A stretch of 64,000 bases of DNA, from contig MIAY01000034.1 of assembly GCA_001829315.1 (NCBI GenBank), positions 28,845-92,844 of the forward strand. The letters run 5' to 3'. Source of the stretch: Spirochaetes bacterium GWE1_32_154 (lineage in GTDB: Bacteria > Spirochaetota > GWE2-31-10). The position numbers and the translations under genes are program-made. The notes under the pieces are model-generated. The model did no database searches. It had not been told where the DNA came from and worked only from the letters and a program-made list of their open reading frames with translations. Of the stretch, positions 50,620-60,152 are shown in pieces. Each line of letters opens with the position of its first letter. The stretch's first letter is position 1.

Positions 50620-50788
50620 GGGGCTCTTGCAGAAATTATGAGTATTTGATGAAAAAAAGTACACATTTTTTATGCTTTCGCTAGGGATATTTTCAGTACT
50701 CTGAAAATATCCCTAGGCAATAAAATCGCGATATTAAGCTGCTTCATGCAAAAATTGGAAATAAAAAAAGTATTCTTGCATGAGGTTC
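50620..50788 (-). repeat. Palindromic MITE-like element, copy 6 (long form, variant centre)
   Basis: In minus orientation this 169-bp element begins GAACCTCATGCAAGAATAC and ends at plus GGGGCTCTTGCAGAAAT. Flanks are AAAA and GAAA (three of four match). It contains a perfect 16-bp inverted repeat CTAGGGATATTTTCAG (50681-50716) with a TACT loop that other copies lack. An additional fragment, GAACCTCATGTAAAAT, lies at 50589-50604. The rest of the 419-bp gap holds the fab promoter and a poly-A run before the FN3 gene. Confidence 0.8.
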
Positions 50789-52727: not shown

Positions 52728-52757
52728 GGGTGGCTTTGCAAAAAGCCACCCTTTTTA
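52728..52757 (+). terminator. Rho-independent terminator after the FN3 lipoprotein
   Basis: GGGTGGCTTT and AAAGCCACCC pair in a 10-bp stem with a 4-base loop and a TTTTTATTT tail. Confidence 0.93.
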
Positions 52758-52824
52758 TTTGCTCAAGATTGAGTATATTAAATTTACATAGACATGACAA
52801 AATCCATATTATATGATATAAATA

Positions 52825-54225
52825 ATGATGAAAAAATTATTATTATTTTTATTAATACTAACCGGTTGCAGTAAACAAATACCATCAGTATATCTGACTG
52901 AGTTTTCTTATAATGTTTCATCTGAAGATGATTATAGTAGAACCGATTTAAGTACCACTGAATTTATTAAAAGTGATTATTTTTATACCACAGGGTCTTT
53001 TTACAATTCTCTACCTGCAAAAAGTGGTTTTTTGTATCTCAGGTTTACTTTTTCTAATCCAGGTAACGGTGAATATGCTTTATTTGCTAAACAAATTGTT
53101 ATGGCGGATGAAGTTTATTTAAATGGTGAAAAAATCGGAAGCACCGGTCGTTTTCCACCGTATCAGTTTAGTGAGTGGAATCGTTCACGTGCCTACATAC
53201 TACCCGGGCGTCTACTGAAAGATGAAAATACATTGATCATAAAAATATATTATAGTAATGAAAAACCAGTCAGTCAGTTACTTGAAATAGGTGACCGTGA
53301 ATATATACTGACAAAATCGGCATTTATTAATCTAGTAACAATTCATTTAAATAGTTTTATTGCATTTTTTGTATTGTTATCTGCAATTCATTTTTTTATT
53401 CTTTTCTTTTTATCAGGAAATAAAAAAATTGCACTCCTTTATAGTTTTATCTGTATTTTTTCAGCCATTTATCTACTTAATTTTTTTATTACATCTATCC
53501 CCGGATTTACATACCTCAAGATGGATTATTTATTTTTTCAGAAAATTATTTTTACATGCCAATTATGTATAGTGTATGGTTGTACTAATTTTGCCAGAGA
53601 ATTCATTGGTGTTGAAGAGAATAAATATCTGCGTATTGCAATAAATGTATTAACTTTAATCGGATTGTTTTGCATAAATATTGCATTCAATTATGATGTT
53701 TTCTTTGTTATGAGATCAATTTCTCAAGGCATTTTTTTACTTCTTCTATTATATATAACAGTTTTAATTATCAGATATTATCTGTCTCTTAAATCTAATC
53801 ATTTATTTTTTATTTCTCTGAGTGCGACTCTTGTTTTTATTTATAGTGACTTTATGTTCAGAACAACGCTGTCATGGAATATTCCTCATATTTCCGGTAT
53901 CGGGTTTACTATACTTATTCTTGCAACCGGTAATTCATTATCGAAACAATTGTATAGTGAGAAATTTGTTTTTAAGGAAATTGCGCAGGATAAAACATCT
54001 TCCGGTATAATAAACTATCTTGACAGACAACAATTATCTCCGAGAGAATATGCAATTGCAAATTTATTGATAAGAGGACTTCATTATAAGGATATTGCAT
54101 ATAATCTGCAAATTTCTATAAAAACTGTTGAGTGGCATATTAGAAATCTGTATAAAAAATTACATATAGGTTCACGTGTTGATCTGATGCATGAAGTTTT
54201 TACCGATAAAGACATTCAAATTTGA
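52825..54225 (+). CDS. Membrane-bound LuxR-type regulator with lipobox and 7TM region
   Basis: The N-terminus has a lipoprotein-like signal (LLLFLLILTGC). Residues about 20-165 form a beta-rich domain of the jelly-roll/7TMR-DISM-extracellular kind (VMADEVYLNGEKIGSTGRFP). About seven membrane helices follow (170-375). The C-terminal 65 residues are a LuxR/GerE helix-turn-helix (LSPREYAIANLLIRGLHYKD, SIKTVEWHIRNLYKKL). This places an external sensor and a DNA-binding domain in one polypeptide, a one-component regulator at the membrane. Signal and targets are unknown. Confidence 0.85.
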   Translation: MMKKLLLFLLILTGCSKQIPSVYLTEFSYNVSSEDDYSRTDLSTTEFIKSDYFYTTGSFYNSLPAKSGFLYLRFTFSNPGNGEYALFAKQIVMADEVYLNGEKIGSTGRFPPYQFSEWNRSRAYILPGRLLKDENTLIIKIYYSNEKPVSQLLEIGDREYILTKSAFINLVTIHLNSFIAFFVLLSAIHFFILFFLSGNKKIALLYSFICIFSAIYLLNFFITSIPGFTYLKMDYLFFQKIIFTCQLCIVYGCTNFAREFIGVEENKYLRIAINVLTLIGLFCINIAFNYDVFFVMRSISQGIFLLLLLYITVLIIRYYLSLKSNHLFFISLSATLVFIYSDFMFRTTLSWNIPHISGIGFTILILATGNSLSKQLYSEKFVFKEIAQDKTSSGIINYLDRQQLSPREYAIANLLIRGLHYKDIAYNLQISIKTVEWHIRNLYKKLHIGSRVDLMHEVFTDKDIQI

Positions 54226-54403
54226 TACCCAGGGAAGAACCCGGGGTGAGCAATGGAAAATATCGGCTTATAAAATTGCAATTAAAGAGTACAATTTCTG
54301 TAATTACATGATTATCTGTAAATAATGTACTGTCAAAAATATTTTCTAATGTTTTAGATAGTACTGAATTTTGCAGCATGTAAAAAAAATACAGGAGTGC
54401 ACA

Positions 54404-56956
54404 ATGAAAAGAATTGTAAGTGTTTTTATGCTGATCATTATTTTGTCAGTAGTAGCGGCAGGTTGTTCGAGTAATGTTGACCCGGCAGTTTCTCAGGATT
54501 CCGGTTCGCCGTCTGATAGTCAGACAAATTCTGATGTAACTGTCGTTGATTTAAATTCAACAGAATATCCGGTCGAAGATACTCAGCTATGGCAGTCTGT
54601 TATGGAAGAGGTAAGTAAAGAATTTCCACTTCAACCAACAGTGACTGAAAACAAAGAGTCAAATCAATTGGAAAGGATGCAGGCAATAACGGGTAGTAAT
54701 CCTTCAAAAGCCCAAATAATTGAACACCTTAAATTCGCAGGAAATAAGTATTCTATTCCTTATGAAGTATTGTATGGTATTGCAATTGAAGAGTCGGGTT
54801 TACGTCAATATCTTTCGAATGGTCAACCATTAATTAGCGGTGATAACGGAATTGGTATTATGCAGGTAACTCCATGGGCAGTTTCAGAGAAATTTAATGA
54901 GTATTCATTAAAATGGGATTATAAGTATAATATTGAAGCCGGTGCTCAGGTAGTGCTTGGAAAATGGCGCTATGTATCACAAAGAAATCCGACAGGAAAT
55001 AATGATTCACTGATTCTTGAAAACTGGTATTTAACTATATGGGCTTATAATGGTTATAGTACAATTAATAATCCAAATGAGTATAGAAACGGACCCCGAA
55101 CGTGGTCTAACGGAATGATAACATGGACAAGAACAGCGTGCTATCAAGCGGAAGTTCTGGCGGAAATAAAAAAAGAATTCGGTATAGCAATTACTCCAAT
55201 ACCAAATAGTCAGTTACCTTTAACCGGTATTCCTGCCAGCGGAAAAGTATTTTCAACACCATTGCCAAAGCATTACACACAAACTGTTAAAACGGTTAAT
55301 CTTAAAGCAAATCCAATTTACTCATACAAGTTTAATTCTTTAAGAAGTGCGTATGATATTGAGGTGAAAATTGAAAATACCGGGGAGTCCGTTATCGGGG
55401 CATTCAGTGCAGGTGTATGGATTAATGGAGCGCATTATACGTATTCAATACAATCACTGCAAGCAAAAACAGTTAAGAGTTTTTTTATTGAAACTGCGAT
55501 AAAAAATCCGGGTGATTATCCATATAAAGTTCTTGCTGACAATACAGCTATCATTACAGAGGATAATGAGTTGGATAATGAAGTGTCGGCAACATTAATT
55601 ATCAGAAATTGTACAATAACGATTCCTGACAATATTATTGCGGGTAAACAAACAATAGTAAGCGGAAATACGTACGGGATTGCAAAAGTACAGATAAAAG
55701 TTGACGGATATGTTTTAAAAGACAGTTCTGGTAATTCATTTGTTACTGTTAATCAAAACGCATACAGTTTATCATATACATTTTCAGAACCGGGTTATGG
55801 TAGAAAGCTTGTTGTTGACGGATATGACAGTGCCGGTGGTAAAGTAATCAGTAAAGAAGCCACTATTAATATTACAGGAGAAAATACGGTCGATATTATT
55901 GTTGAATATCCTCAGGAAATTGTTGCGGGTGCTCAATGTACTTTTACCGGAACTGCACCGGGTATACATTCTCTTGTTTTTTCTGTTGATGGATATATTC
56001 TCAAATCAGGAGCTGCAAGTTCAATTGCAGTTGTTAATAACCGCTTTAGTTTTCCCTATACTTTTTCACAGCCCGGCTCGGATCGTTTGCTTGTTGTTAA
56101 AGGGTATGACAGTCAGGGAAATCTGCTTAAAACATTACAGGATTCACTTACAATCAAAGCAGAAGGTGCGCTAAGCCCTGTGCCGGTGATTAAAAGTATT
56201 AATTATACGACACTTCCTCTTAAAACAATGGATGAGGAAGGATTGCAGATTATACTGTCTGAACAGTCTCAACTACAGAAACAGCGATCATATTTTGTTA
56301 AAACATCTATTCGACGTACTTCAGGAACATGGGTTATTGCCTCTGCTGAAGCGATTATCAAACCGGGAACTACTCAAACGGCTATTGAAAGCTCCGTTGT
56401 ATTTAATACAGCGGGAACAATATATACCAAGGTCGAAGTTTTTGCTCCTGATCAGAAAACACTGCTTGTTTCACGGGAAGGGTCAGCTTCTGATACGATT
56501 GTTGATAGTACAGCACCTGCAACAGGTAAGTGGAAAATTGTTATTGATCTTTCAAAAAACAGATATAACATTGGTACATTATCTTTGTATGATCAGTATG
56601 GAACAGTTAAACTTACAATGAACTGCCTGGGACGTTCCGCAAGTAATGATTCAATGAGTGTTTTTCGTGGCAATACCCCAACCGGTGTATATAGCGGTTA
56701 TTTAGACGGTCCGTATGATAATGCTGTTTACGGGCCTTATAAAGTAGTTAATATGACAGGTGTATCGGGCTTAATTACTACAACCCCACGATCAGGAATC
56801 TGGATACACGGAGGCCGTTCGCAGACTTCATTGTCACCAACGTATGGATGTGTTCGAATCTTTAATGCAGATCAGAAAAAATTGCAGGATACTATTTCGT
56901 CTTTGATTAATACTGGTCATAAAAAAGTCGGGACAATAATTATTAGTGAGAAATAA
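54404..56956 (+). CDS. Lipoprotein fusing a lytic transglycosylase and an L,D-transpeptidase
   Basis: From ATG 54404 (after AGGAG) the protein of 850 residues has a lipobox (VVAAGC). An SLT-type lysozyme-like domain follows at about residues 105-240 (YEVLYGIAIEESGL with the catalytic Glu, GIGIMQVTPWAV, WAYNGY). Then come a CARDB-like domain (about 300-400), two Ig-like repeats with the shared 'YTFS.PG..R.LVV.GYDS.G' pattern, and a C-terminal YkuD domain (about 710-850) with IHGG and SPTYGCVRI. YkuD enzymes form 3-3 crosslinks or attach proteins to peptidoglycan. The usual 'S/T-H-G-C' is T-Y-G-C here. Confidence 0.85.
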   Translation: MKRIVSVFMLIIILSVVAAGCSSNVDPAVSQDSGSPSDSQTNSDVTVVDLNSTEYPVEDTQLWQSVMEEVSKEFPLQPTVTENKESNQLERMQAITGSNPSKAQIIEHLKFAGNKYSIPYEVLYGIAIEESGLRQYLSNGQPLISGDNGIGIMQVTPWAVSEKFNEYSLKWDYKYNIEAGAQVVLGKWRYVSQRNPTGNNDSLILENWYLTIWAYNGYSTINNPNEYRNGPRTWSNGMITWTRTACYQAEVLAEIKKEFGIAITPIPNSQLPLTGIPASGKVFSTPLPKHYTQTVKTVNLKANPIYSYKFNSLRSAYDIEVKIENTGESVIGAFSAGVWINGAHYTYSIQSLQAKTVKSFFIETAIKNPGDYPYKVLADNTAIITEDNELDNEVSATLIIRNCTITIPDNIIAGKQTIVSGNTYGIAKVQIKVDGYVLKDSSGNSFVTVNQNAYSLSYTFSEPGYGRKLVVDGYDSAGGKVISKEATINITGENTVDIIVEYPQEIVAGAQCTFTGTAPGIHSLVFSVDGYILKSGAASSIAVVNNRFSFPYTFSQPGSDRLLVVKGYDSQGNLLKTLQDSLTIKAEGALSPVPVIKSINYTTLPLKTMDEEGLQIILSEQSQLQKQRSYFVKTSIRRTSGTWVIASAEAIIKPGTTQTAIESSVVFNTAGTIYTKVEVFAPDQKTLLVSREGSASDTIVDSTAPATGKWKIVIDLSKNRYNIGTLSLYDQYGTVKLTMNCLGRSASNDSMSVFRGNTPTGVYSGYLDGPYDNAVYGPYKVVNMTGVSGLITTTPRSGIWIHGGRSQTSLSPTYGCVRIFNADQKKLQDTISSLINTGHKKVGTIIISEK

Positions 56957-58871: not shown

Positions 58872-60152
58872 ATGATGAAAGATACACTCTGTATTATATT
58901 AGGTGGCGGTCAGGGATCGCGGTTGTTTCCATTAACAAAAGACAGGTCAAAACCGGCTGTTCCGATTGGCGGTAAATACAGACTCATTGATATTCCGGTT
59001 AGTAATTGTTTAAATTCCTATATAAACAGGATTTATATACTTACTCAATTTAACTCGGCATCGCTTAATAAACATGTTAATCATACCTATAGATTTGATA
59101 GTTTTCATCGTGGTTTTGTTGATATTCTTGCGGCGGAACAGTCAATGGATAATACTGACTGGTATCAGGGTACTGCTGATGCTGTAAGGAAAAATTTAAA
59201 ACATATTCTAGCGTACCCTGATATAAAACATGTACTTATTTTATCTGGTGATCAGATTTATACAATGGATTTTCGTGAGCTTTATGAATATCATATCAGA
59301 ACCAGTGCAGAAGTGACTGTTTCATTAGTTCCGGTGAATAGAGAGGATGCTTCGTCATTCGGGTTGGTCAAGTTTGGTGACAATACTGAGAAAATTGAAA
59401 AATTTATTGAAAAACCTAAAAAAACAGGGGTTCTTGACAGCCTTAATTTTGAAACATTAATAAGAGAAAAATTTCCTAATATTGAACCGGGTAAAAATTA
59501 CTTGGCTTCAATGGGTATATATTTTTTTAATATTGAAACGCTTATTGATTTACTGGATTCCGATTGTTCTGATTTCGGTAAAGAAGTTATTCCACAGGCA
59601 ATTGATTCTAAAAGAGTAATGGGGTATTTATTTAATGGATACTGGGAAGATGTTGGAAGTATAAAAACATTCTGGAAAGCAAATCTTGATTTTACAAGGG
59701 TTATTCCTAATTTTAGTTTTTACAAATCTTTGATTTATACCAATTCAAGACATTTACCGGCTTCACGGATTTTTAATTCTCAAATTGATGAAACTATTAT
59801 TTGTGATGGAAGTGTTGTAAAATCATCAAAACTAACACGAACCGTTGTTGGTATACGAAGTATTGTTAATGAAGGTTGTGAAATAACCGACTCAATATTA
59901 ATGGGGTCAGATTTTTTTGAATCGGAGAGTGATAAGGAATATAATTTTGATAATCAAATCCCTGATGTCGGTATTGGTCAGAACTGTATTATTCATAACG
60001 CGATCATTGATAAAAATGCAAAAATAGGAAATAATTGTAAAATTGTTAATATTCAACACCATGAAACTCTTGATTGTGGTCATTATTATATTCGTGAAGG
60101 TATTATAATTATTCCTAAAAATGCTGTTATACCTGATAATACGATTATATAG
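58872..60152 (+). CDS. glgC: Glucose-1-phosphate adenylyltransferase
   Basis: GlgC makes ADP-glucose for glycogen synthesis. The 426-residue protein has the nucleotide-binding GGGQGSRLFPLTKDRSKPAV, PIGGKYRLIDIPVSNCLNS, WYQGTADAVRKNL, the catalytic SGDQIYTMDF and FIEKPK. A C-terminal left-handed beta-helix (VGIRSIVNEGCEITDSILMG, IGQNCIIHNAIIDKNAKIG) carries the allosteric part. No glgA or glgB is near. The TAG stop uses the first G of a palindromic element. Confidence 0.95.
   Translation: MMKDTLCIILGGGQGSRLFPLTKDRSKPAVPIGGKYRLIDIPVSNCLNSYINRIYILTQFNSASLNKHVNHTYRFDSFHRGFVDILAAEQSMDNTDWYQGTADAVRKNLKHILAYPDIKHVLILSGDQIYTMDFRELYEYHIRTSAEVTVSLVPVNREDASSFGLVKFGDNTEKIEKFIEKPKKTGVLDSLNFETLIREKFPNIEPGKNYLASMGIYFFNIETLIDLLDSDCSDFGKEVIPQAIDSKRVMGYLFNGYWEDVGSIKTFWKANLDFTRVIPNFSFYKSLIYTNSRHLPASRIFNSQIDETIICDGSVVKSSKLTRTVVGIRSIVNEGCEITDSILMGSDFFESESDKEYNFDNQIPDVGIGQNCIIHNAIIDKNAKIGNNCKIVNIQHHETLDCGHYYIREGIIIIPKNAVIPDNTII

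Follow-up and report, generated by a model that had tools for sequence, protein, structure and literature searches.

The gene at positions 52825 to 54225 (+ strand) of the window, the 64,000-nucleotide stretch of DNA that was analysed, raises the question of how a single chain with an outward-facing sensor and seven membrane helices could bring a DNA-binding domain to a promoter. The original prediction placed a lipobox, a jelly-roll-like domain, about seven helices and a LuxR domain in this one protein, and Pfam, a structure model and the family alignment all agree with that description. The complete open reading frame (ORF) starts with ATG and encodes 466 amino acids. From N- to C-terminus it comprises a lipoprotein-type signal peptide with a lipobox (residues 1-15; 52825-52869), a predicted periplasmic jelly-roll domain (residues 28-157; 52906-53295), a seven-helix (7TM) membrane domain (residues 158-388; 53296-53988) and a LuxR/NarL-type HTH (residues 403-456; 54031-54192), all on the + strand. 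The HTH is a complete GerE domain that scored above the Pfam cut-off (E 1.2e-15) and matched the DNA-binding NarL structures (1je8). An AlphaFold2 model built from nine aligned sequences (mean pLDDT 73, pTM 0.65) has a signal helix, a beta domain at residues 28-157, seven long helices at 158-388 and the HTH helices, with pLDDT below 50 in parts of the signal peptide, in the stalk at 382-390 and in the last 18 residues. Hydropathy agrees with the model in placing seven transmembrane (TM) helices ahead of the HTH. The last of these, TM7, extends as a cytoplasmic helical stalk (approximately residues 373-400), the linker being only about 30 residues long, and receiver (REC) and kinase domains are absent from the protein. 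Homologues of the receptor half were found in 55 of the 393 sampled genomes of the phylum (E <= 1e-12), so the architecture is not a product of chance. The gene and its protein are thus confirmed as real.

The receptor half is a member of a Spirochaetota 7TMR-DISM-like family, whose named members come from Treponema and other Spirochaetota and with which it shares 24-31% identity. Seventeen of the 18 aligned family members, the target included, matched PF07695 (7TMR-DISM_7TM), with a best E of 3.5e-19; this assignment is made through the family alignment, the target by itself lying under the 29-bit Pfam cut-off (residues 182-366, 22.6 bits, E 1.2e-4). Residues of the receptor that are conserved across the family are kept in the target. 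The 18 sequences are too diverse for their alignment to serve for scanning. The jelly roll resembles the N-terminal sugar-binding domain of GH2 enzymes. Its strands are present in the model, Glyco_hydro_2_N was matched by sequence in 2 of the 18 alignment members, and Foldseek returned GH2 beta-galactosidases and glucuronidases (6se9, E 2.8e-5) together with a CBM35. The TM-scores of these hits, about 0.24 for the query as a whole, are low since the alignment covers the beta domain only. Pfam matched neither DISMED1 nor DISMED2 to the target's jelly roll.

The N-terminus (MMKKLLLFLLILTG followed by C) has MMKK and a hydrophobic stretch ahead of the lipobox L12-T13-G14-C15, and thus has the signal peptide and the Cys-terminated lipobox of a bacterial lipoprotein. 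Of the 17 aligned sequences with a residue in the lipobox Cys column (target included), 15 have Cys there; the preceding position is occupied by G, A or S in every one of the 17, and the remainder of the signal peptide is variable. Homologues without the lipobox, which the original prediction had taken as a sign against it, do occur: Gln replaces the Cys in L008 and L010, and inspection showed no Cys in L007 and L013 either. The expectation of a conserved lipobox therefore held for most of the family and failed for these members, and since L008 and L010 carry Gln at the Cys column the fold does not require the lipid anchor. We read the lipobox as conserved and the predicted lipidation as probably dispensable. 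In the target, export and signal-peptide cleavage would probably be followed by lipidation of Cys15, which would hold it on the outer side of the cytoplasmic membrane. A lipobox on a polytopic protein is unusual but has precedents among polytopic lipoproteins, CyoA and Bacillus SpoIIIJ being examples. The conservation of the lipobox poses the question of why a lipid anchor is found on a chain already held by seven helices.

The orientation of the protein was computed from the positive charges near the membrane, with 16 Lys or Arg residues on the loops predicted to be cytoplasmic versus 5 on the remaining loops. This positive-inside bias gives an N-out/C-in topology with the HTH predicted to lie in the cytoplasm, and not outside it, the placement that the original prediction had named as refuting it. 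With a receptor outside and a gene-switch domain inside, the protein would probably couple an external signal directly to gene control. Having a GerE domain and seven helices, it belongs to the transmembrane transcription regulators (TTRs), which combine a DNA-binding domain and at least one TM segment per chain. We consider it likely that the target is a one-component TTR that senses a periplasmic, probably carbohydrate, ligand and controls transcription from the membrane. The periplasmic jelly roll would probably bind a carbohydrate-like ligand, the seven TM helices would pass the signal inward through the short stalk, and the LuxR-type HTH would dimerise and regulate its target promoters while attached to the membrane. 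TTRs are widespread, are enriched in Spirochaetota and act from the membrane (PMC10269533), so contact with DNA there needs no special explanation. We think it improbable that regulated proteolysis operates instead, with the ligand triggering a cut in or near TM7 that lets the HTH diffuse to the chromosome. The HTH does stand at the extreme C-terminus behind a single stalk, hence one cut would free it; however, multi-pass TM-LuxR proteins and other TTRs have been described as membrane-acting, and the linkers of the minimal 7TM-LuxR relatives discussed below are even shorter than the target's. Nothing points to release, and a non-systematic search identified no protease partner or cleavage motif.

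The outputs attached to related receptors bear on what the HTH does. The usual output of the same receptor is a SpoIIE phosphatase (L008, L014 and L021, with L049 also SpoIIE-like), and reading of the sequence gave a GGDEF-like output in L039. L014 (1261-2574, - strand) is a receptor-SpoIIE protein without most of the phosphatase, a 438-aa frame that looks as if it were internally deleted. A lipobox, jelly-roll and 7TM receptor followed by an AraC HTH was found by Pfam in L040 and by resemblance in L041-L043, which belong to another Spirochaetota family (f20). Because 7TMR-DISM relatives signal mostly through enzymes (SpoIIE, GGDEF and kinases), one could suppose that the HTH of the target serves mainly in protein-protein interaction, or depends on a phosphorelay, and does not control DNA directly. 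This seems very unlikely to us for a full GerE domain that matches DNA-binding structures, in a chain without the REC or kinase domain that a phosphorelay would involve. Direct control of transcription from the membrane thus remains our preferred reading of the HTH.

The sister genus (G001) offers a possible view of how the arrangement arose. There, one contig stops within the jelly-roll half of a receptor (L036, 6185-6688) and another begins inside a 7TM domain and continues as HisKA-HATPase-REC-LuxR (L037, 2216-4159), the two contig ends lying on C299 and C278. Apparently L036 and L037 are two parts of one receptor-kinase-REC-LuxR gene, read across separate contigs, and further 7TMR-DISM-kinase-REC-LuxR proteins occur in the class (L109 and L110). 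Among the HTH domains collected, that of L037 is the closest to the target's (27 of 54 residues identical), and the two are also nearest in the receptor tree. The target may derive from a protein of this kind through loss of the kinase and receiver, a derivation that draws on the HTH similarity and on two contig ends taken as one gene; because the target and L037 sit at a fork of long branches that lacks resolution, the tree goes no further than to suggest it. Internal deletion of the kinase and REC from such an ancestor might also have left a decayed hybrid, poorly regulated or constitutive and with little function, and the truncated SpoIIE form in L014, together with the two G001 contig ends and the closeness of the HTH, would fit that account. 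We judge it unlikely, as the reading frame runs unbroken from lipobox to HTH, the receptor retains the residues that its family conserves, and kinase-less direct 7TM-LuxR fusions occur so often in this class and phylum that the target's arrangement looks like a usual working form.

The extent of such fusions was seen at several levels. Eight of the ten GerE proteins above the cut-off in the same genome, the target counted, are polytopic, and at least six TM segments were found by hydropathy in 41 of 70 LuxR-HTH ORFs from nine genomes of the class, these fractions not being unbiased since some loci were cut at contig ends or picked by their match to the 7TM-LuxR profile. Besides the target, the eight polytopic proteins of the genome include three (L002-L004) in which a soluble region lies between seven TM helices and the HTH; Pfam matched HisKA_7TM weakly in L004 but not in L002 or L003. 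The remaining four are minimal 7TM-LuxR proteins (L071-L074, frames of 273-319 aa), which match PF07695 weakly (10.7 to 21.3 bits, all under the cut-off) and are collinear with the target family at an hhalign probability of 96 and E 2.6e-9, values for which the HTH is largely responsible. These minimal proteins, of about 270-320 aa, are without a soluble sensor, and a probable fifth lies at G000:C36:11292-12107. Similar 7TM-LuxR proteins of 300 aa are widespread in the phylum, with many examples across Spirochaetota genera, and the abundance of such proteins in the class suggests a large uncharacterised sensor group. More tentatively, it is possible that the lipid-anchored seven-helix receptor is a swappable front end for many outputs in Spirochaetota, and that this lineage uses it as a direct sugar-to-promoter switch in a broader radiation of one-component 7TM-LuxR regulators that partly replaces two-component signalling.

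The exact combination was found only once. No orthologue of identical architecture was detected in the plasmids, the genome contigs or the class, and among the 393 sampled genomes of the phylum a lipobox, jelly roll and 7TM domain joined directly to LuxR was found in the target only, with four candidates scored per genome so that a weak paralogue could escape. One full-length match (L049, 27-446) was rejected as a SpoIIE-type protein. Evidence for the exact fusion therefore comes from a single draft genome, in 43 contigs; an origin in assembly or gene decay is conceivable, yet the ORF is intact. In the part of the literature that our search covered, no description of a 7TMR-DISM-LuxR fusion was found.

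The original prediction had proposed looking for a dyad in the 124 bp upstream and for homologues beside polysaccharide genes. In those 124 bp, the sole strong inverted repeat is the intrinsic terminator of the upstream gene (52728-52751, + strand), a perfect stem of 10 bp with a T run behind it, which separates the upstream transcription unit from the target's. The best remaining dyad does not exceed chance, since 144 of 200 shuffles gave one at least as good. A candidate promoter, TTTACA-18-TATTAT (52783-52812, + strand), would put the transcription start a few bases ahead of the ATG, and is a weak candidate because the AT-rich DNA here contains many consensus matches (20 found versus 11.5 expected). 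The target's neighbours are two lipoprotein genes, one upstream for a fibronectin-like lipoprotein and one downstream (54371-56956) for a lipoprotein-like chain with SLT transglycosylase, CARDB and YkuD L,D-transpeptidase domains. No polysaccharide cluster lies beside the target, the nearest related gene being GlgC-like (58872-60152), and neither an operator in the 124 bp upstream nor a conserved neighbour points to a regulon. Farther upstream, the intergenic DNA that precedes the fibronectin-like lipoprotein gene contains a perfect inverted repeat of 16 bp around a 4-bp loop (50681-50716).

Comparison with known systems places the target between several of them. Like the 7TMR-DISM proteins NicD, RetS, LadS and RgsP, it joins a periplasmic sensor to PF07695-type seven helices and a variable cytoplasmic output; unlike them, it has a lipobox, a LuxR HTH directly after TM7, and a jelly roll that is GH2-N-like and not of the Pfam DISMED1/2 type. 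The periplasmic domains of 7TMR-DISM proteins are predicted to bind carbohydrates, with up to 14 paralogues in Leptospira (PMC6107284), and the DISMED2 domain of NicD is reported to bind carbohydrates (PMC8544897). The receptor-SpoIIE and receptor-AraC proteins of Spirochaetota have the lipobox, jelly roll and 7TM domain of the target and differ in the output domain. The best-known TTRs are single-pass proteins with an N-terminal winged helix, whereas the target has seven helices and a C-terminal LuxR HTH. It shares with ToxR, CadC and TcpP the presence of a TM region and a DNA-binding domain in one polypeptide that, for TTRs, acts at the membrane, and two-component domains are carried by 8.2% of TTRs (PMC10269533). 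Closer in layout are the TM-LuxR regulators DadR, HcdR and CadR of Coriobacteriia, characterised genetically and belonging to a type that controls catechol metabolism genes in Eggerthella, in which a polytopic domain is likewise followed by a C-terminal PF00196 HTH and which are also expanded within a genome (PMC9734109). These have 10-12 helices, whereas the target has seven together with a periplasmic jelly roll and a lipobox. Membrane-embedded LuxR proteins are thus already known, and the target is a new domain combination within the TTR class. The protein connects two subjects that have been treated apart: the 7TMR-DISM receptors, which usually have enzymes as outputs, and transcription factors embedded in the membrane. 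Carrying its signal, membrane and HTH regions on 466 amino acids and lacking a kinase, it offers a compact test case for the control of a DNA-binding domain by a polytopic receptor.
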